Positions 5,996-17,589 of a stretch of 17,855 nt of DNA are shown here, one piece after another. The notes beneath the pieces are model-generated. The model was not told the DNA's origin, searched no databases, and was given only the letters and a program-made list of their open reading frames with translations. This DNA comes from Oligoflexales bacterium (GTDB lineage: Bacteria > Bdellovibrionota > Oligoflexia > Oligoflexales > Oligoflexaceae): assembly GCA_015232735.1 (NCBI GenBank), contig JADFZC010000016.1:1-17855 (forward strand), given 5' to 3'. How positions within the stretch are numbered: the stretch's first letter is position 1; each line of letters begins with the position of its first letter. The translations under genes and the position numbers were made by a program.

Positions 5996-6904
5996 ATGAA
6001 AATTATCACAATTTCTCTATCGTTTTATTTGATTGGCCTTGTCGCAACAGATTTGCATGCTGAAGGCAGTTGTACCTATCCATCGAATACTGTTGAAAAT
6101 GAATTATTTACTTATATAAATAACCAAAGAACGAACAAGATGATATGTGATTTGGGTGCCTGGTGGACTGCCTATTACCATAACAAAGATATGTGTGATA
6201 ATAACTTTTTCAGCCATGTTGGTTCAGATGGAAAAAGATTGGGGGAACGACTGACCAGACAAGGTGTTACCTATACGATGGCGGCTGAAAATATTTATAT
6301 GGGAAGTGGTACCAGTGTCAGTGGTTATGATGTCTACACTTCCTGGTATAACAGCAAGGAGGGGCATAGAGAAAACATGTTCAATAGTAATTATGGCAGG
6401 GTTGGGATTAGTGTTTACAGATGTTCCAATTCTGACAGGACATATGCGACAGCTGTATTTGTTAACCCTTTAAATAATGACGGTGGAGGAAATGGTGAAG
6501 ACACCTATGCTGCTATTGCTTTGTCGACATCTACGCGGGATTGGGGGACTGCATGGAAATTTACCACTCAGTCATCCGCAACGGAAAATGCACTGAAAGC
6601 ATGTTCAAGAGGTCCAAATAACGCAAGCGACTGCAAGTTGATAACTGCTGTTAAAAATTCCTGCGCTGCACTCGCCATGGGTTATAATGCTTACGGATGG
6701 TCTAACCATGACAATCTTCAAACAGCCGAGGCCAATGCCGTATCTTACTGCAATCAGAAAACCACTAGTTGTGCCATCGCGACAAAGGTATGCTCCAATG
6801 GTTCTCATCAAAATGGAGTCAACGGGAATATTATTGCTGAGGAGGATAATACCTCTTATTCAACAGATATTCACATTTTCAGGGATGAACCGCTTAACGA
6901 TTGA
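5996..6904 (+). CDS. Secreted CAP/SCP-domain protein fused to DUF4189
   Basis: A 302-residue exported protein. Residues 1-22 are a signal peptide (ending DLHA). Residues about 33-157 form a CAP/SCP (PR-1-like) domain: NNFFSHVGSDGK with His74, AAENIYMG with Glu98, and KEGHRENMFN with His124, followed by YGRVGISVYR and a final TAVFVNP strand. These are the conserved pocket residues of bacterial CAP proteins, whose biochemical role is poorly defined. After a Gly/Asn linker (161-168), residues about 170-267 match DUF4189: an AAIALS opening, ATENALKAC, SCAALAMGYNAYGW, then a second AEANAVSYC / CAIATKVCS unit, with paired cysteines suiting an oxidising compartment. GAGAGG lies 7-8 nt before the ATG. 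A 12-bp hairpin follows the stop. It appears monocistronic. Confidence 0.85.
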   Translation: MKIITISLSFYLIGLVATDLHAEGSCTYPSNTVENELFTYINNQRTNKMICDLGAWWTAYYHNKDMCDNNFFSHVGSDGKRLGERLTRQGVTYTMAAENIYMGSGTSVSGYDVYTSWYNSKEGHRENMFNSNYGRVGISVYRCSNSDRTYATAVFVNPLNNDGGGNGEDTYAAIALSTSTRDWGTAWKFTTQSSATENALKACSRGPNNASDCKLITAVKNSCAALAMGYNAYGWSNHDNLQTAEANAVSYCNQKTTSCAIATKVCSNGSHQNGVNGNIIAEEDNTSYSTDIHIFRDEPLND

Positions 6905-7816: not shown

Positions 7817-8986
7817 AAACCTATCTTATATTTTGATGGAGTTTGTGTCGAACGAGCCCGGACAGCACAGTATCTCGGAACGATTGAAAAATTGATTGAG
7901 ATGGCGGAAGGAGGTGGCCGCGAAGAGGTGAGGCAAATAGATTGCGTTGATGAGGGGGGTGTATCTGTTCTTTGTAAAATCGCTGATGAGTTGGGTGTCA
8001 AGGATATTATCGACTCGATTTACCCTAAGCGTAAACAAGGGATGACTGTCGGTGACAATGTTCTCATCGCGGCGTTAAATAGGGCATTGGCCGCTACATC
8101 AAAATCAGAAATGAAAGAATGGGTGGACTCTACCGCTTTACATCTCTATTTACCGATGGATGGAAAAAAACTCGAATCTCAAAATTTTTGGGATCATTTC
8201 AATAAAATTAGTGCGGAACAAGTAGAAAAAATCAGTGATACCATTGCAAGGAAAGTTGCAGAACTTGAAAAAATCGATCTCGATTGTCTCATCTATGACA
8301 CCACCAATTATTTCAATTATTGGGACGTGACGACACCATCTGAACTGGCAAAGATGACGAAATCCAAAAGCGGCAAAGATCATCTTAGACATATCGGACT
8401 TGCTGCAACCTTGGATAGGCAGTGGGGAGTTCCCTTATTTTATCGATTGTATCCAGCTAACGACTATGACTCAAAAGTCTTCAGCAACTTGATTGACGAC
8501 CTTTTTAAGCAGATTAATCATGTCAAAACTGATAAAAAAAGCGTTACTCTCGTCATTGACAAAGGCAATAACTCTGAAGAACTTATTCAAAAACTCGATA
8601 AGAGCCGATACCATTTCCTAGGAACCCGCAGCCCTTATCATCATAAGGATCTTTGTCGGATCAGCCTCGATGAATATTCAGACATTGAGCTCAATGAAAC
8701 CAAAAAAGTCCAGACTTATGAAGCCAGGAGTGAACTCTATGGCCAAATTAGGCGCATCATTCTCGTTTTAAATAACGCTACATATCAACGTCAGCTTCAT
8801 CGAATGGATCGTCATATTGAGCAGGCTAAAACGGAACTGTCATTTTTCAAACGCAAAGCCAAAGGTGCTTACGGCCGTTCGACTATAGAATCTATTGAAC
8901 GCCAAGCAGATGAAATCCTGCAACATCCCATTGCATTTGCCCCAACCTTGGCAAAAATATGGACAATTCTTAAAAAAGCATGTTAA
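7817..8986 (+). pseudogene. IS1634-family (IS4 superfamily) transposase, truncated at both ends
   Basis: The frame is open from 7817, just after a stop, and has no ATG; the peptide begins with a family-like stretch (ERARTAQYLGTIEKLIEMAE), so the normal first 30-40 residues are missing. It runs through DEGGVSVLCKIADELGV, a first catalytic-Asp region (CLIYDTTNYFNYW) and a second (VTLVIDKGNNSEEL), then a helical RQLHRMDRHIEQAKTEL section, and stops at 8986. The family is usually about 550 residues; the last 150-200, which carry the catalytic Glu (YRxxWxIE region), are absent. It therefore cannot transpose. Its left edge abuts the IS3-type relic and its right edge abuts the SET gene promoter region. 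Confidence 0.8.
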
Positions 8987-9056
8987 TTTAAGATATTGCA
9001 CTAATACATCGGCACAGGTAAGCTATCTTTATCAATAGTTGTCATTGGAGCATAAT

Positions 9057-9623
9057 ATGAAATACAGTGCAGAAGAGATTCTAAGTAGCGGATCGTCATA
9101 CTTTCCAACACTGGCCGATGAATTTTACAGTTTCAGCAAACGCTGGATGCCTGATAAAAAATACTATGGTGTATTTGCCGATGAGCCAATTGTCGAAGGC
9201 AGCGTTATCGCCAGGGGGGGCGGCAAACTGGTTGGTTTCGATCATATCTCTGAAAAGGAGATGAATTTTTCTGTTCTGATGGGTGAAGGCATTTATGCAG
9301 TCCCAATTGACATGAACAACTTGGAAACCTTTTGGTTTGTCAATCATTCCTGCTCACCGAATGTGGCAAGGATAGGCGGTCTCATATTCGTAGCCAAAAA
9401 AGCAATACAGGCAGGAGATGAAATAACAATAGACTATGCTCCTCTTGCAGCTTCAATCTCTGAAAAGGAAAAATGGTCTATGGAATGCAATTGCGCAAGC
9501 GAAAATTGCAGGCGGATCATCTCATCAGAGGATTGGAAAAATCCCTCTCTGGTATCCAGACTCTGGCCGGAATGGCTTCCCTTTATTCAAAAACTCATTG
9601 TCAATAACTCTCATATCGGGTGA
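9057..9623 (+). CDS. SET-domain protein lysine methyltransferase with post-SET zinc motif
   Basis: A 188-residue cytoplasmic protein expected to transfer methyl groups from SAM to lysine of a protein. The start is ATG 9057 because GGAG lies 7 nt upstream; a TTG 18 nt earlier is less likely. The SET core is complete: YYGVFADEPIVEGSVIARGG (37-56, SAM-binding Gly loop region), FVNHSCSPN (94-102), and AGDEITIDYAPL (119-130, with the Tyr of the active site). A post-SET CxCx4C (Cys144, Cys146, Cys151) together with Cys99 of NHSC supplies the four zinc ligands known from eukaryotic SET enzymes. Bacterial SET proteins are sporadic and include secreted chromatin effectors, but no signal peptide is seen here. 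It lies 9 bp before the hybrid kinase, probably one operon. Target unknown. Confidence 0.88.
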   Translation: MKYSAEEILSSGSSYFPTLADEFYSFSKRWMPDKKYYGVFADEPIVEGSVIARGGGKLVGFDHISEKEMNFSVLMGEGIYAVPIDMNNLETFWFVNHSCSPNVARIGGLIFVAKKAIQAGDEITIDYAPLAASISEKEKWSMECNCASENCRRIISSEDWKNPSLVSRLWPEWLPFIQKLIVNNSHIG

Positions 9624-9632
9624 AAAAGAAAT

Positions 9633-11981
9633 ATGAAATTGATACTGGCTATTTTGTATATTCTTATGCCGACTGTACTCGCATCAAAACTGATGTTGGA
9701 CAACTATTTCATTACAGGTCATCATGCCCATTTGTCCGAGTTGGGGATAGTTCTGGTTTTCTTCTATGCCCTCCTAAAAGAATCCTGTGAGAACAGGTCC
9801 GAGAACATTATCATGGCAATTTCGTTTTTAGGCCTTTTGTTTGCGGATCTGGTATATACATTCACCGTTATGCTGCCAAACAGGGAGAGCCTGTTGATCG
9901 TCCAGGTAAGCAATTTCGGATATACTGTTTTAATGCTGGGACAGACCATATTGGTATTGAGAGACATACTATTCTTTCACTTTCGAAAGGAACCATGGTC
10001 TCTGGCAATAATCGTCCTTTTAGCTGTAGCCTTCAATATCCTGAACATGAAATATATTACCATGCCCATTATAGAAAAAGGTGGTTTTGCGACTACTTTT
10101 CAGATAGCACATGACATCTTTTACTCATTCCTTTCAAGCGTGATTTGCGCTGTTTTCATCCCCTATGTTTTCCGCAGTGTAAATTTTCACTCCATGTCAT
10201 ATGGATTGATGTTTCTTTTGATGTGCATGTCGGATTTTGCAATCAGAATGCAAACCGCATCCGCCAAAAGCGAGCAGATCCTGTACGGTTTTGAGCATGG
10301 ATGGGAAATAGGAGTGGCTTCAATATTCATGCTGGTTCTCTGGAAAAGAAAGGCACCCGGTTTTAAGTCAACCGATATTGCTCCTCTGAGAAGTCTTCGT
10401 GCAATGCTAGCGCTTGCAATAGCGGCAAGCCTTTTCATCTCATTGGTATTAATGTTCATTGTCAGGCTCTTTCAATTGCGTGATGCCTACAACCTAACAA
10501 ATTTTTTATTGATCATTCTAGCAACGGTCCTGTGGTCAAATGCCATTGCTCTTTACTTTTCACTCAGCGTAACCAATATAAGCAGTCTGGTAGACGAGCC
10601 CCTTAAAAAAATCACTGAAGCTCTAAGCCCAGAGTTGGCAGATCATCGTTTTCCCTATGTGTCCCATACGACGAAAATTGAAGAGATAGACTCAGTTATC
10701 AACAAATATAACATAGTTGCAAAAAAAGCAAACCAGCTGATTGAGGAGGTGATAGAAAAATCACGCCTTGCAGCAATATCCAGAACAACCCAGATGCTGG
10801 CACATGATGTACGAAAACCATTTTCCATAATAAAACTTGGCCTTGATCAGCTCTGCGAGGCAAAGGACATGATGAGTATCAGAAACATATTGAAAATTTT
10901 TATTCCGGAAATAGATAAATCGTTGAGATCAGTTCAGGGGATGATCAACGACATCATGGAGGTCGGACGCGCTGCCGCCCCAAAAATGGAAAATGTGGCA
11001 ATTGAATCCATTCTGGAATCCACTTTGTCTGATCTTTGCAGGGTTTATGAAAATACTGACATACAAATCAATTATGAATTTGCGCATAAACATATGCTGA
11101 ACGTAGATTCACTGAAGATGTCAAGGGTATTTGCAAATATTATTGGGAACGCATTTCAAGCTATGAATTATTCCGGAAGTCTATGGATAAGAACAACAGA
11201 GGAAGAAGGAATGATGACTGTCTGCATCGGAAACAGCGGATCTTTCATAAGCGAAGATGACATGCATGACCTTTTTGAAGCGTTTTTTACCAAGAACAAG
11301 CATGGCGGAACTGGTCTAGGGCTTGCTATTGCACACAAAATTATAACGAGTCACGGAGGAAGAATCTGGTGTGAATCATCCAGTGAAAAACGGACTGTTG
11401 AGTTTTTCTTCACTCTGCCGACAGACATCACCCAGCAGAACAGGACGACATCCATATTGTTTAAAAACACCAAAGACATTCGAGAGGAAATAAATATTTC
11501 AACCTTATCATTTCCGCAGGGCGAAGATGCCGTATTCAACGTCATCGACCATACGATCTATGAAAAAACCATTCAAAAACATAGTCAAGAGCTTGGCAGA
11601 AAGATAAAAATTGCCATTATCGATGATGAGGCTGTATACAGGAATTCATTAAAGGAACTCATCGAAAAAAACGATAATGTAAAAAATTATGTTGAGTCGA
11701 GATTCTTTTCCTCATCATCTTCTCTTCTGGAGGCATTTTCGTCGGAATCTTTCGATTTTCTCATCTGCGATATCGATCTCGGCCCCGATTCGCTCGATGG
11801 CTACGAAATTTTAAGGAGAATAAGGATTAAGGGGCATAAGACAATCATTTGTGTACATTCGAATAGATCTCTTCCTGAGGACTATACGATGTCCATAGAG
11901 CTCGGTGCACAATCCTTCCTTACCAAACCGATGACATATCTCCATTTTTTGAAGTTTATAAGCAGTACCCTTCCGATTTAG
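9633..11981 (+). CDS. Membrane hybrid histidine kinase with C-terminal receiver
   Basis: A 782-residue sensor. Residues 1-315 hold about nine hydrophobic helices and little periplasmic domain, so the signal is probably sensed in or at the membrane. A linker (316-375) leads to the H-box LAHDVRKPFS with the phosphorylatable His391, then the N-box ANIIGNAFQAMN (501-512), a G1 region reading GNSGSF (533-538; Asn where most kinases have Asp), an F-box FEAFFTK and the G2 box GGTGLGLAI (558-566). After a 60-residue spacer a receiver domain (658-782) shows the acidic pair D664/D665, phosphoacceptor D713 (LICDIDL), S743 and K765. No output or HPt domain is present, so phosphate must pass to another protein or the receiver gates the kinase. 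Poor ribosome binding site; translation is likely coupled to the SET gene 9 bp upstream. Confidence 0.92.
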   Translation: MKLILAILYILMPTVLASKLMLDNYFITGHHAHLSELGIVLVFFYALLKESCENRSENIIMAISFLGLLFADLVYTFTVMLPNRESLLIVQVSNFGYTVLMLGQTILVLRDILFFHFRKEPWSLAIIVLLAVAFNILNMKYITMPIIEKGGFATTFQIAHDIFYSFLSSVICAVFIPYVFRSVNFHSMSYGLMFLLMCMSDFAIRMQTASAKSEQILYGFEHGWEIGVASIFMLVLWKRKAPGFKSTDIAPLRSLRAMLALAIAASLFISLVLMFIVRLFQLRDAYNLTNFLLIILATVLWSNAIALYFSLSVTNISSLVDEPLKKITEALSPELADHRFPYVSHTTKIEEIDSVINKYNIVAKKANQLIEEVIEKSRLAAISRTTQMLAHDVRKPFSIIKLGLDQLCEAKDMMSIRNILKIFIPEIDKSLRSVQGMINDIMEVGRAAAPKMENVAIESILESTLSDLCRVYENTDIQINYEFAHKHMLNVDSLKMSRVFANIIGNAFQAMNYSGSLWIRTTEEEGMMTVCIGNSGSFISEDDMHDLFEAFFTKNKHGGTGLGLAIAHKIITSHGGRIWCESSSEKRTVEFFFTLPTDITQQNRTTSILFKNTKDIREEINISTLSFPQGEDAVFNVIDHTIYEKTIQKHSQELGRKIKIAIIDDEAVYRNSLKELIEKNDNVKNYVESRFFSSSSSLLEAFSSESFDFLICDIDLGPDSLDGYEILRRIRIKGHKTIICVHSNRSLPEDYTMSIELGAQSFLTKPMTYLHFLKFISSTLPI

Positions 11982-12051
11982 ATACGAAAGTACAAATTGT
12001 TAAACATAATATTTTTCCCCGCAAGGCCTTCTTTAAATAGGTTAATCACTT

Positions 12052-12101
12052 CCAAAGTGATACATGATAATTCTTTTACCGATTATCATGTATCATTGTG
12101 G
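12052..12101 (+). repeat. Long hairpin, 14-bp perfect arms extendable to 20
   Basis: TGATACATGATAAT (12058-12071) and its exact reverse complement (12082-12095) are separated by 10 bp. Allowing a G-T pair and one mismatch the stem extends to 12052-12101. It lies 70 bp after the hybrid kinase stop and 90 bp before the next ORF. It is AT-rich and has no following U-tract, so it is a poor intrinsic terminator; an RNA structure or binding site is equally possible. Confidence 0.65.
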
Positions 12102-12160
12102 AAGGATTGAACCTTAAAGGGAAAACCTTGCTGATAAATAACATTATGTATATTAATCGA

Positions 12161-13097: not shown

Positions 13098-14423
13098 TCA
13101 TTCCACGCTTGTGATTGCTTTTGACCATACCAATTCTGCCGCATAGAGAGGGATTCTGATAATCCTGTCAGAAATGAAAAAGTTTTCTTCTGACAGTTTA
13201 ATCCCTCTTTTTATTTTTTTCTCATCCAAAAAAATATGAAGGCTTTTCATTTTGCCTCCACTGCCCGATTTGACTTCGAGAGGAATCATTGCACCATCTA
13301 CAGCGATGACAAAATCGACCTCGGCACTGCTTCCGCGAGCTTCCCTATGCCAGTAGAAGATATCAGGCCTTGTGTGCGAAGGGCTTCCTTTGACAAGTTC
13401 ACAGCACACGAAAATTTCAGCGAGAGCACCTTTATTGATAATATTCTGGAAATCCATAAGGACATATTTTGAAAGATCAAGGCCGAGGATCCTCTGCATG
13501 ATTCCGACATCAAACATAGCCATTTTGAATAGATTTGGAGTTATCTGAGCGCCAAGAGGAACTCCTCCCGCAGATGTATGGCAGATTTTATAGGTCAGTC
13601 CGGCCTTTATTAAAAGCTCAAGGGCAATCTTGTAGGTCGATGAACGTTCGTCAGAGATACTAGCATACTTAAATTTTCCACCGGCCTGAAAGGCGATCGA
13701 GCGAAACACTTCGGTTAATCGATCGATGGGCGGATTTTTTTTATATTTGGCGAAATCATCGAAGTAGGTAAGAAGAAGGCCATCGATGATCTTTTGGCAA
13801 TCAAGGAGCCCCTTCCCTTCAATATAGCTCTTTACAACCTCAGGCAATCCGCCGATTAACAGGTAGGTTTTTAGAAGCTCCAGCAGCTTCAAATGAATAA
13901 CATCCGAGAGAGGATTTTTAAAGGAGGCCTCGTGAATAGCCCTGACAAGGTCAGGGGAATCATGGGCCATAAGAAACTCGTGAAAACTCATCGGATACAT
14001 GAAAAGCGACTCAATTCGTCCAACCCCATAGGATGGGATTTCAGAGAGAGCAAATTCCAAAAGAGATCCTGCGGCAATCAAATGCAGTTCAGGCATCTTT
14101 TCGTAGAAAAACCGAAGAGATCTGATGGCCTCGGGACAAGCTTGGAGCTCATCAAAAAAAAGGAGTGTTGAACCCGGTTTGATCTGCGAACCGAAATAGA
14201 GAGAGAGCTGTTCAATGATTTTTTGAGGGGTGAGGGAGTCCTGAAAGAATTTTTTGATACTCGAATGTTCCTCAAAATTCACTTCTACAAAATTGGCAAA
14301 ACGGCGGCCGAACTCCCGAACAGAATAGGTCTTCCCTACTTGTCTTGCGCCTCTCAAAAGAAGGGGTTTTCGTTTGGAATTTGTCCGCCAATTTTCAAGT
14401 TTGGTATTTATAATTCTTTCCAT
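13098..14423 (-). CDS. AAA_14/DUF4143 ATPase
   Basis: A 441-residue cytoplasmic ATPase, typical length for the family. The N-terminal AAA domain has Walker A GARQVGKT (25-32), Walker B LLFFDE (87-92) followed by LQACPEAIRSLRFFYE, and AAGSLLEFAL (117-126), the sensor region characteristic of AAA_14. A winged-helix-like middle (TEVFRSIAFQAGG, ISDERSSTYKIALELLIKAG) leads to the DUF4143 C-terminus, which carries a PD-(D/E)xK-like arrangement: AEVD (D380) and PLEVK (E393, K395). The family is widespread in bacteria and archaea, often multicopy and horizontally moved; function is not established. No good ribosome binding site precedes the ATG at 14423. Upstream are four motifs at about 33-bp spacing. 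A GNAT gene follows, then a fragment of a second such ATPase. Confidence 0.9.
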   Translation of the reverse strand: MERIINTKLENWRTNSKRKPLLLRGARQVGKTYSVREFGRRFANFVEVNFEEHSSIKKFFQDSLTPQKIIEQLSLYFGSQIKPGSTLLFFDELQACPEAIRSLRFFYEKMPELHLIAAGSLLEFALSEIPSYGVGRIESLFMYPMSFHEFLMAHDSPDLVRAIHEASFKNPLSDVIHLKLLELLKTYLLIGGLPEVVKSYIEGKGLLDCQKIIDGLLLTYFDDFAKYKKNPPIDRLTEVFRSIAFQAGGKFKYASISDERSSTYKIALELLIKAGLTYKICHTSAGGVPLGAQITPNLFKMAMFDVGIMQRILGLDLSKYVLMDFQNIINKGALAEIFVCCELVKGSPSHTRPDIFYWHREARGSSAEVDFVIAVDGAMIPLEVKSGSGGKMKSLHIFLDEKKIKRGIKLSEENFFISDRIIRIPLYAAELVWSKAITSVE

Positions 14424-14800: not shown

Positions 14801-16070
14801 CAAATTATCCACAAACTGCGGCATAACCTGCCTACAAAAGCGATCAAAAAACATACTCCGAAAATGTACAAAAAATGGCTTTTTCACCGAGAGAAATGTT
14901 GGTTAGAAATTGCCTATCTGAGTGATCGATTTTGCAGTGAATGCTGAACAGAAGGGAAGCAAATGATGGGGAGGTCTATACAGCTCGCAGCCAGGGAGAT
15001 TTTTTGCGCAGTTTTAATCTATACAATTGCAAACAGTTAAATCACTCCCTCATCGATATGTGCTATCAGTTGCGGCGTTCGCTTTTACCTAGGCAGGAAC
15101 GAATCATCATCGACTTTGATTCGACAAGCCATGAACAACATGGAAAGAAGATGGAAGGTGTGGCGCATAACTACAAAGGAATATGGGGTCTCGATAGCAT
15201 TAACGCATTTGACGAATATGGCCTCCAGTATTGGCATGACGTTCGTCCGGGCAACACATATACCTCTAATGGAGTAACGGAGATCATCCATGAAATATTT
15301 AATCGAATGCCCAAGACAAAAGCATATAAGCATGTTAAACGCTATGCCAGAGCCGATAGCGGATTTTGCAACTCTGATTTTTTTGGTGCTTGCGGTATCA
15401 AAGAGGTCAATTTTGTTGTAGCAATGAAGGAGAATATATATGGCCCTTTGATAAAAAATGTAAAAAATTGGTATGCCCAAAATCCAAACAAAAAAACCGC
15501 ATCCGATTTCGTGATTGTAGAGAGTGTGAAATTGGCGAGACCATTTATAAGCCAGGAAATAGTAATAGAATCTTGCGAGTGGTTATGATACGGGCCGTAA
15601 AAGAAGAATCGAAACGGGCTTTGTTTAAATTAGAAAGTGATTATGACTATCATGCTTTTGTAACAAGCATCGGCGCATATGAGATGAGTGGGGCTGCGGT
15701 GATAGAATTCTATCGTGGCCGGGGTAACGCAGAAAATTTTTTGAAAGAAATAAAAAATGGACTCGATCTTCATCACTACCCATGCCAACAACTCACTGCA
15801 AATAAGGCATATGGGCTTATAGGTGCAATTTCGTATAATTTAATGCGATTTATATCGCTTCTCGACAACATTAAAAAACCAAAGTTTGCCAAGGCTATTC
15901 GATTTCATTTTGTACACTTGCCGATGCAAGTACTACGCCATGCACGACAAGTGATTTTTCGATATGGAGAACATCATTACAATGGGAATGTGAAATCTTT
16001 TTCCCTCAAATCAACATCAACCCTCTATAATATTTGCTCTTCGAGGATTTTTTCAAAATCACCCGTTTGA
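14801..16070 (+). pseudogene. IS1380-family transposase, frameshifted copy
   Basis: A relic in several frames. From 14801 a frame without a start gives a family-like N-terminus (LPTKAIKKHTPKMYKK, CWLEIAYLSDRF) and stops at 14927-14943. The main frame from ATG 14941 carries VYTARSQGDFLRSF, the first catalytic Asp (IIIDFDST) and the second (YARADSGFCN). Around an A7 run at 15490-15496 homology moves to another frame, which continues RIRFRDCRECEIGETIYK through the third acidic site (YRGRGNAENFLKEIKNGLDLHHYPC) to 16070. The intact copy at 16198 aligns throughout but is clearly diverged, so these are two different elements rather than a recent duplication. With at least two disruptions it should be inactive. 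Confidence 0.8.
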
Positions 16071-16197: not shown

Positions 16198-17589
16198 GTG
16201 AATATCCATATCAAATCCGAAAAGACCGATAAACATCTTTCTTCACTTGGGGGGCTGACATTATTTGCAAAGTTCTGGTCCACATTAAAAATGCCAGCAA
16301 TGATTAGTAATTTTTTGCCTCAAGTACGCCATAGCCTCAAAAAATTTGAAGACCTCTCCCTTGGTTTTGCAGCCGGTGCAGAGTGCCTTGATGATATCTC
16401 AACCTTGGCTCTCGATGAGGGGTTTAGAGCTGTGTGCGATGAGAAAGTCTACACAGCGAAAAGCTATGGGGATTATCTTCGTGAATTTACCGAGCCTCAA
16501 ATCGACGAGGGTAACCGCGCATTAGCCAGAAGTGCCTTTATGCAACGAGCCAAGATCGATAAGAAAATGACTTCCATGACCTTTGACTTTGATTCAACTT
16601 TTAACGAGCAGTATGCCGAGAAAATGGAGGGGGTTTGCTTTTCCGGAGAAAAGAAGGCGACGGGTCTGACAACGATGTATGTTTTTGACGAGCTGGGATT
16701 TCAGTACTATGGCGATGTGCGTCCAGGAAACACCCATACGTCCCATTCAATAGCCAAAATCATCCATATGGTGTTATCCCAAATGCCCACAGAAGGCACT
16801 TACAAAGCTGAGGAAGTCTATCTTCCCTGGCTTAAAAGTCCCTATAAGAAAAAGATCCATCTCTACGCTCGCGCCGATGCCGGCTACAGCAATAGTGAAT
16901 TCATGAATGGCTGCTTTGCTAAAAACATGGGCTTTGTCGTGCGGCTTAAAGAGGATATGTTAACTCCAAAATTAAAAAATATTACAAACTGGAAAGATAC
17001 TAAAAAGCGTTTAAAACCGATCAAACGCCGCGATGGACGAACTGATTATGTGGATAAATCCATACGGTTCTACGACGGGCGGCGGGCAGAAATCGGATCA
17101 ACAATTTACCGTAATGAAAATATGGTTCATGCAACCCGGCTTATTTGTATCCGCGCTAAAAAACCTGGTTCTTTAGGCCTCAAAGCAGAGGATTATGATT
17201 ATTACGCCTGGTTGACCAATATTGGCGAACACGAGATGAATAATGAAAAAATTATCTTTTTCTATAGGGCTCGAGGCCAGGCGGAAAATTACATAAAATC
17301 CTTAAAATATGGCTACGACATGCACCATTATCCCTGCCTCAAACTGGACGCCAACAGGGCTTATTGCCTCATTGCTGGATTTTCATACAATGTGCTTCGG
17401 TTCATCGCTTTGCAGGATAATCCTAGCAAACCTCATTATGCCAAGGTGCTTCGGAACAAATTAATCAACTTGCCCTGCCAGGTAGTCCGACGGTCAGGAC
17501 AAGTTTTTTTTAAATTTATGGAAACTCATTTGATGGAGGTGGAACGATTCTTAATAAAGCTAAAAAACCTGCAGTATGGTTACACATAA
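16198..17589 (+). CDS. IS1380-family transposase, apparently intact
   Basis: A 463-residue DDE transposase that cuts and joins the ends of its own element. The start is GTG 16198: the frame is closed by TGA 12 nt upstream and there is no ATG before residue 32; no strong ribosome binding site is seen. The N-terminal DNA-binding region ends in the family motif AECLDDISTLALDEGF (61-76). Catalytic residues are D122 (FDFDST), D217 (YARADAGYSNSEF) and E353 (FFYRARGQAENYIKSLKYG), followed by DMHHYPCLKLDANRAYCLIAG and the C-terminal QVVRRSGQVFFKF. Length matches the family (about 430-480). Terminal inverted repeats could not be found by eye, so element borders and target duplication are undefined. 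It sits next to a diverged broken relative. Confidence 0.9.
   Translation: MNIHIKSEKTDKHLSSLGGLTLFAKFWSTLKMPAMISNFLPQVRHSLKKFEDLSLGFAAGAECLDDISTLALDEGFRAVCDEKVYTAKSYGDYLREFTEPQIDEGNRALARSAFMQRAKIDKKMTSMTFDFDSTFNEQYAEKMEGVCFSGEKKATGLTTMYVFDELGFQYYGDVRPGNTHTSHSIAKIIHMVLSQMPTEGTYKAEEVYLPWLKSPYKKKIHLYARADAGYSNSEFMNGCFAKNMGFVVRLKEDMLTPKLKNITNWKDTKKRLKPIKRRDGRTDYVDKSIRFYDGRRAEIGSTIYRNENMVHATRLICIRAKKPGSLGLKAEDYDYYAWLTNIGEHEMNNEKIIFFYRARGQAENYIKSLKYGYDMHHYPCLKLDANRAYCLIAGFSYNVLRFIALQDNPSKPHYAKVLRNKLINLPCQVVRRSGQVFFKFMETHLMEVERFLIKLKNLQYGYT

Follow-up and report, generated by a model that had tools for sequence, protein, structure and literature searches.

A SET-domain methyltransferase gene paired with a membrane hybrid histidine kinase in an Oligoflexales bacterium, and a possible role for the enzyme in the sensor's signal

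What might a SET-domain methyltransferase be doing directly in front of a membrane-bound sensor kinase? The question is raised by a 17,855-nucleotide stretch of an Oligoflexales bacterium (contig JADFZC010000016.1, assembly GCA_015232735.1; this whole stretch is called the window below), in which a gene for a SET protein and a gene for a hybrid histidine kinase follow one another (coordinates are collected in Table 1). The initial annotation of this DNA, made from the letters alone, had placed the two genes on one strand 9 bp apart and had found the kinase to lack a good ribosome binding site, and both descriptions hold, with just AAAAAGAA, a weak site, upstream of the kinase start. We infer from this layout that the two genes are probably co-translated. 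The same annotation had proposed a functional link, with the SET enzyme either serving as the kinase's effector or methylating a component of its pathway; as argued below, the link gains support because the pair recurs in a distant genome, while the direction is less well supported, the evidence pointing instead towards the input side of the kinase.

The recurrence comes from a scan of genome contigs for close relatives of the SET protein, which returned two loci (L001 and L002), both in a single metagenome-assembled genome (MAG) labelled Deltaproteobacteria. At L001, a SET gene (7956–8543) is followed by a kinase gene whose ATG at 8540 overlaps the SET stop codon in an ATGA; this ATG was chosen as the start because it is where alignment with the window kinase sets in. 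The SET proteins of L001 and the window are 37% identical, and the kinases are alignable from residue 1 at 23% identity (expectation value, E, 1e-31). Among the 35 matches to the window kinase in this MAG, the SET neighbour is both the best and the sole one to cover the sensor, all others beginning no earlier than residue 278. The MAG kinase breaks off at the contig end, where the final 127 bases (10215–10341) repeat the SET start exactly, in inverted orientation; this copy is probably an assembly fold-back, and a true truncation of the gene was rejected on that ground. The SET protein of L002 is 86% identical to that of L001, and its gene is preceded by two class-I methyltransferase genes, the nearer of which ends at the SET start. 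The initial annotation would have abandoned its link if homologues of the two genes were almost never adjacent; counting the window, a kinase stands at two of the three readable loci of the close SET family. That a distant relative carries this pairing too suggests an enzyme that makes the signal of the sensor or works on it.

It is the sensor, together with the SET gene, that appears to form the recurring unit, because the core of the MAG kinase is of another subtype (46–50% identical to two kinases of the same phylum, G001 C35 and G041, and about 23% to the window kinase). While the kinase core has many relatives in a protein search, the best two of them named Oligoflexales, a search with the sensor alone returned the query itself and nothing else; no confirmed relative came from a search of plasmids with the sensor, nor from scans of viral contigs with the sensor and with the proteins P0002 and P0013. 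Across the 46 genomes of the MAG's phylum, the window-type sensor was found in two, the MAG itself and G010. The G010 sensor kinase (905 aa, E 1e-71 against the window kinase) comes from a genome with no match to the window SET family, and lies on the same strand between two class-I methyltransferase genes (L077, 3162–7710). The upstream methyltransferase gene overlaps the kinase start by 16 bp, and the downstream one most likely begins at an ATG 128 bp past the kinase stop, behind an AAGGAG; an overlap of 4 bp with the kinase, which a mechanically called GTG start would give, was set aside in favour of this ATG. Both enzymes match Methyltransf_25/31 and other families, with no CheR row among the matches listed. 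Genes for an L,D-transpeptidase and for another hybrid kinase lie further upstream in G010. A methyltransferase using S-adenosylmethionine (SAM) therefore adjoins the sensor at all three readable sensor loci (window, L001 and G010).

The two kinases that share the MAG-type core also have a methyltransferase nearby, a second linkage between a methyltransferase and a sensor: in G001 C35 (L082, 157–3621) and in G041 (L119, 1–3411) a conserved operon runs from a class-I methyltransferase through a five-helix membrane protein to the kinase, the three proteins being 45%, 59% and 46% identical, respectively, between the two genomes. Four other kinase loci, scanned at one neighbour each, carry a periplasmic binding protein, a FemAB-like protein, a PEGA protein and a weak VWA_N match.

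By its motifs and profile matches, the window kinase is a hybrid histidine kinase, with an H-box, a HATPase_c domain (E 1.4e-20) and a receiver with its phospho-accepting aspartate (Response_reg, E 2.3e-14), the two Pfam domains both scoring above their cut-offs. HisKA is below its Pfam cut-off (E 3e-4), and its H-box, AHDVRKP, is invariant in a 16-row alignment. A Pfam profile search found no output domain after the receiver, so that the architecture of the catalytic half is as the initial annotation had drawn it. Its membrane sensor also stands, although not the count of about nine helices: ten are present in the predicted model of the kinase (mean predicted local distance difference test, pLDDT, 76.9), and a hydropathy scan gives ten peaks in each of four relatives (L001, G010, P0010 and P0013), with eight reaching the threshold in the window protein. 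The window sensor matches no Pfam family at its cut-off and no NCBIfam model at E ≤ 10. MASE3-type kinases (NF047874) have a similar multi-helix membrane sensor, but neither the window sensor nor that of G010 yields a MASE3 row, and the match in the MAG sensor is weak (NF047874, E 3e-4, far below the curated cut-off; Pfam MASE3, E 0.009). Most of the rows listed by fold searches with the kinase were matches to the kinase core and receiver. A weak row for a viral lysoplasmalogenase (E 3e-3), which carried no aligned range and presumably matches the sensor, was discarded as evidence.

The protein in front of the kinase had been described as a SET lysine methyltransferase, of which the SET domain is secure (PF00856, E 1.2e-11, 45.3 bits against a cut-off of 22.4) and lysine is an assumption. 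No further Pfam family scores above its cut-off, and NCBIfam gives no match. We took the gene to start at the ATG at 9057 and to stop at 9623; the mechanical open reading frame begins at a TTG at 9039. The catalytic motifs, as read in the sequence, are complete (NHSC at 96–99, DY at 126–127 and CxCx4CR from 144), and N96, H97, S98, C99, D126, Y127, C144, C151 and R152 are invariant in all six aligned rows, the window included. The post-SET zinc cysteines CxCx4C are present as C144, C146 and C151, the second being replaced by tryptophan in one of the six rows (P0006). The window protein has an N-terminal part of its own, and the C-terminal EDW...EWLPFIQ extension is common to most members of the close family. 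That family is small: a shared-word search of about 5.8 billion proteins found five others matching at E ≤ 0.001, and when 29 SET proteins of bacteria and viruses were placed in a tree, which took in no BurB and left deeper SET branches unresolved, the window protein grouped with its four nearest rows in a clade of their own (support 99/97).

The substrate of such an enzyme need not be a protein. BurB, a bacterial SET enzyme of solved structure, methylates free methionine to S-methylmethionine and starts the synthesis of dimethylsulfoniopropionate (DMSP) (PMC12542666). Like the window SET protein, it is a small bacterial protein with a similar DYA...CxCx4CRR...IT C-terminal part; it is the top PDB match of the window protein's C-terminal part, if a weak one (E 0.081), and when the SET profile was compared with PDB it scored E 7.6e-9 (entry 9l4t), the sole bacterial entry recognised in the best 60 of 106 rows. 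No gene of the DMSP pathway was recognised in the window. Several distant SET genes, moreover, lie in surroundings reminiscent of biosynthesis: desaturase and TauD genes near two on viral contigs (L003 and L033); class-III aminotransferase and QueC- or NAD-synthase-like genes near two more (L005 and L006), with a radical SAM gene at L005; peptide ligase, lysine 2,3-aminomutase and SidA-type genes near one on a Streptomyces plasmid; and GHMP kinase, pyridoxal-phosphate-enzyme and transporter genes near one in Tabrizicola. Because BurB uses free methionine and because several distant SET genes sit in such clusters, lysine should not be assumed for the window enzyme.

Known signalling cassettes offer an analogy. 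LuxM and CqsA use SAM, CqsS is a hybrid kinase, and in LuxM–LuxN and CqsA–CqsS, as in the window, the gene of an enzyme adjoins that of a kinase with a sensor made of a bundle of membrane helices, so that the window has the arrangement of a synthase–sensor cassette, an enzyme gene next to a multi-helix hybrid kinase. LuxN has nine and CqsS six predicted membrane helices (PMC5007282), and the genes of a synthase and its sensor are described as commonly neighbouring or lying near each other (PMC3376566). We tentatively favour a role for the SET enzyme at the input side of the kinase, in a layout like that of these cassettes, where it would make or edit the small-molecule signal of the sensor, a reading to which we give somewhat less than an even chance. 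The SET enzyme, with SAM, would make or modify a small and probably membrane-passing molecule; the ten-helix sensor would detect it, binding would set the kinase or phosphatase activity, and phosphate would pass from H391 to the receiver aspartate and on to a separate phosphotransfer protein and a regulator elsewhere. We infer the small-molecule substrate, its role as ligand and the phosphorelay alike; the last step is drawn in this way because the kinase has no output domain, and hybrid kinases of that kind as a rule hand their phosphate to a phosphotransfer protein distinct from themselves. A product read by the sensor is favoured because methyltransferases of two unrelated folds adjoin one sensor type, and the input side is preferred to an effector role because the sensor, rather than the kinase core, is kept with SET, and because in G010 it is linked to class-I methyltransferases. 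More specifically, a SET-fold (class V) methyltransferase might be the signal maker for a ten-helix hybrid kinase, with class-I enzymes serving the same sensor elsewhere and methylated metabolites forming the signal class of one sensor family, an extension that we consider doubtful. With one independent repeat of the SET pair, our confidence in the mechanism is moderate at best.

A number of observations weigh against this proposal. Just one independent genome shows the SET pair again, with a kinase interrupted by the end of the contig; at L002, no kinase follows the SET gene. The sensor loci number just three, and in G010 the downstream methyltransferase is probably not translationally coupled to the kinase. 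As a control, the best 24 rows of a longer list of kinase-core matches gave 27 kinase-core open reading frames at 23 loci, and a methyltransferase (SET, or class I detected by motif) partners the sensor unit in four of the 27, a count to be read knowing that the class-I motif test can miss methyltransferases and that some control loci break off close to the gene. The 84 HATPase and 69 Methyltransf_25 matches of G001 and G010 combined form six pairs on one strand no more than 2.5 kb apart, where even spacing would predict 1.9, but three of the six are from the G010 locus and the excess carries no significance test. Because these control counts are low, kinases of this sort do not in general have a methyltransferase as partner, and the argument depends on the three sensor loci. 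On the side of the enzyme, the best PDB matches of the SET profile are histone methyltransferases of the MLL type (E 3.5e-13), ahead of BurB; the structure predicted for the SET protein (pLDDT 42.5) is too poor for fold comparison; and two distant SET genes on Paraburkholderia plasmids (L136 and L135) have HU or H-NS genes nearby, where native methylation of nucleoid proteins is possible. The genes beside the pair include none that was clearly recognisable as serving precursor supply or export. The analogy itself is partial, as the window enzyme is a SET protein and belongs to neither the LuxM nor the CqsA family, the sensor has about ten helices, and any homology of this sensor to LuxN or CqsS would be hypothetical.

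The main rival to a role in signal production is that the SET enzyme methylates the sensor kinase itself, on lysines of loops or of the linker, and so tunes it as CheR-type methyltransferases tune chemoreceptors, although the window enzyme is a SET protein and not of the CheR family. We regard this as rather unlikely, but several features would accord with it. Tight coupling would suit an enzyme–sensor complex, the SET gene is kept with the sensor and not with the kinase core, and it is protein-lysine methyltransferases that the SET profile resembles most in the PDB. The eukaryotic-type enzymes MLL/KMT2 and ASH1L share with the window protein the SET motifs, the post-SET cysteines and the motif tyrosine, and MLL-type enzymes outscore BurB over the whole SET profile; the window protein differs from them in its own N- and C-terminal extensions, and neither a histone-like target nor a secretion gene could be recognised next to it. 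(NUE is an example of a bacterial SET protein acting as an effector.) On a Deinococcus plasmid (L137, 4953–6592), moreover, a SET gene overlaps the gene of a HAMP membrane receptor by an ATGA; this receptor has a weak Cache match and no kinase, and the locus is perhaps another SET–sensor pair. Yet unrelated class-I methyltransferases take the place of SET in G010, which would be odd for lysine-specific tuning, no lysine is found among the 17 invariant columns of a five-row sensor alignment, and no demethylating partner was noticed beside the pair.

That the two genes merely share a transcript, with no functional interplay and an adjacency due to chance or shared ancestry, seems improbable. The readable loci of the close SET family are just three, with a kinase at two, and other SET genes stand apart from such kinases. 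None was found by profile search at 54 viral-contig loci, many of them short, a lower bound (at least 54) drawn from 600 listed stretches; none was found either, with two kinase profiles at E ≤ 1e-3, at 11 plasmid loci (H1–H4, H7, H8, H10–H12, H14 and H15 of 15 hits, leaving out H5, H6, H9 and H13; all 11 were scanned, including the unannotated records H3 and H11). A SET search of phage records gave no confirmed relative. Against a chance adjacency, gene order, strand and near-zero spacing are kept between the window and the MAG despite identities of 37% for SET and 23% for the kinase. Least probable, and less so than an input role, is that the kinase controls the SET enzyme, which would then methylate cell proteins such as nucleoid proteins as the output, for although the lone receiver could dock an enzyme and the Paraburkholderia SET genes have HU or H-NS genes in their vicinity, SET is not accompanied by a conserved kinase core (the receiver is not comparable, as the MAG kinase is cut) and an output-less hybrid kinase would by general knowledge feed a phosphotransfer protein instead.

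Table 1. Features of the SET–kinase locus and its borders (positions are those of the window).
Feature	Position	Strand	Basis
SET-domain methyltransferase, 188 aa, with post-SET cysteines and C-terminal EDW...EWLPFIQ extension	9057..9623	+	Open reading frame, profile, alignment
Hybrid membrane histidine kinase, 782 aa	9633..11981	+	Open reading frame, profiles, alignment, predicted model
Sensor, residues 1-316, about ten membrane helices	9633..10580	+	Common to L001, G010, P0010, P0013
HisKA (H391) and HATPase_c core, residues 379-599	10767..11429	+	Profiles, alignment
Receiver domain, residues 656-782	11598..11978	+	Profile; D664, D665, D713, K765 invariant in 16-row alignment
TTGGAG, likely ribosome binding site of SET gene	9045..9050	+	Read in sequence, six bases upstream of SET start
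9-bp gap from SET stop to kinase start, no strong ribosome site	9624..9632	+	Read in sequence
Relic of an IS1634-family transposase (364 aa, lacking the profile end); upstream border	7892..8986	+	NF033559
Large imperfect hairpin downstream of kinase, two 33-nt arms	12039..12114		Arms 12039-12071 and 12082-12114; folding z -7.3

The pair is bordered, as had been described, by a transposase relic upstream and a large hairpin downstream, and both are real, although the acquisition by transfer suggested from them stays conjectural. The relic matches NF033559 at E 2.8e-43, covering the profile to position 316 of 483; that the SET gene might be part of it was rejected in view of the gene's own ribosome binding site and of the MAG relatives in other settings. 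The hairpin is not among the calls of a terminator scan, and may represent either a terminator of unusual form or a miniature element; a 15-mer scan with it gave 41 matches that looked like chance and were discarded. Neither a tRNA nor any Rfam family reaching its gathering score was found in the window. Elsewhere in the window, CAP and DUF4189 domains are joined in one protein (5996–6904), and an AAA_14/DUF4143 ATPase on the minus strand (13098–14423) matches the PADLOC candidate defence family PDC-S01 (E 3e-139), with adjoining transposases, a partial DDE and a near full-length IS1380-family enzyme, at 14941–15588 and 16198–17589. Against the PADLOC profiles, the SET protein was without a match, while the kinase had a single weak row (E 0.002).

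In those parts of the open-licence literature that we surveyed, the SET proteins of bacteria appear chiefly as enzymes aimed at a host, and, judged by titles and the starts of abstracts, no paper on a SET–kinase pair was found; the terms 'histidine kinase', 'two-component' and 'operon' are likewise missing from the main text, as searched, of a 2014 review of these proteins (PMC3980110). The recurrence of SET with a membrane sensor, with other methyltransferases in its place elsewhere, would suggest a native signalling role for SET enzymes in bacteria. If SET instead tunes the sensor itself, the locus would be a two-component system with a SET enzyme acting as its internal protein methyltransferase.

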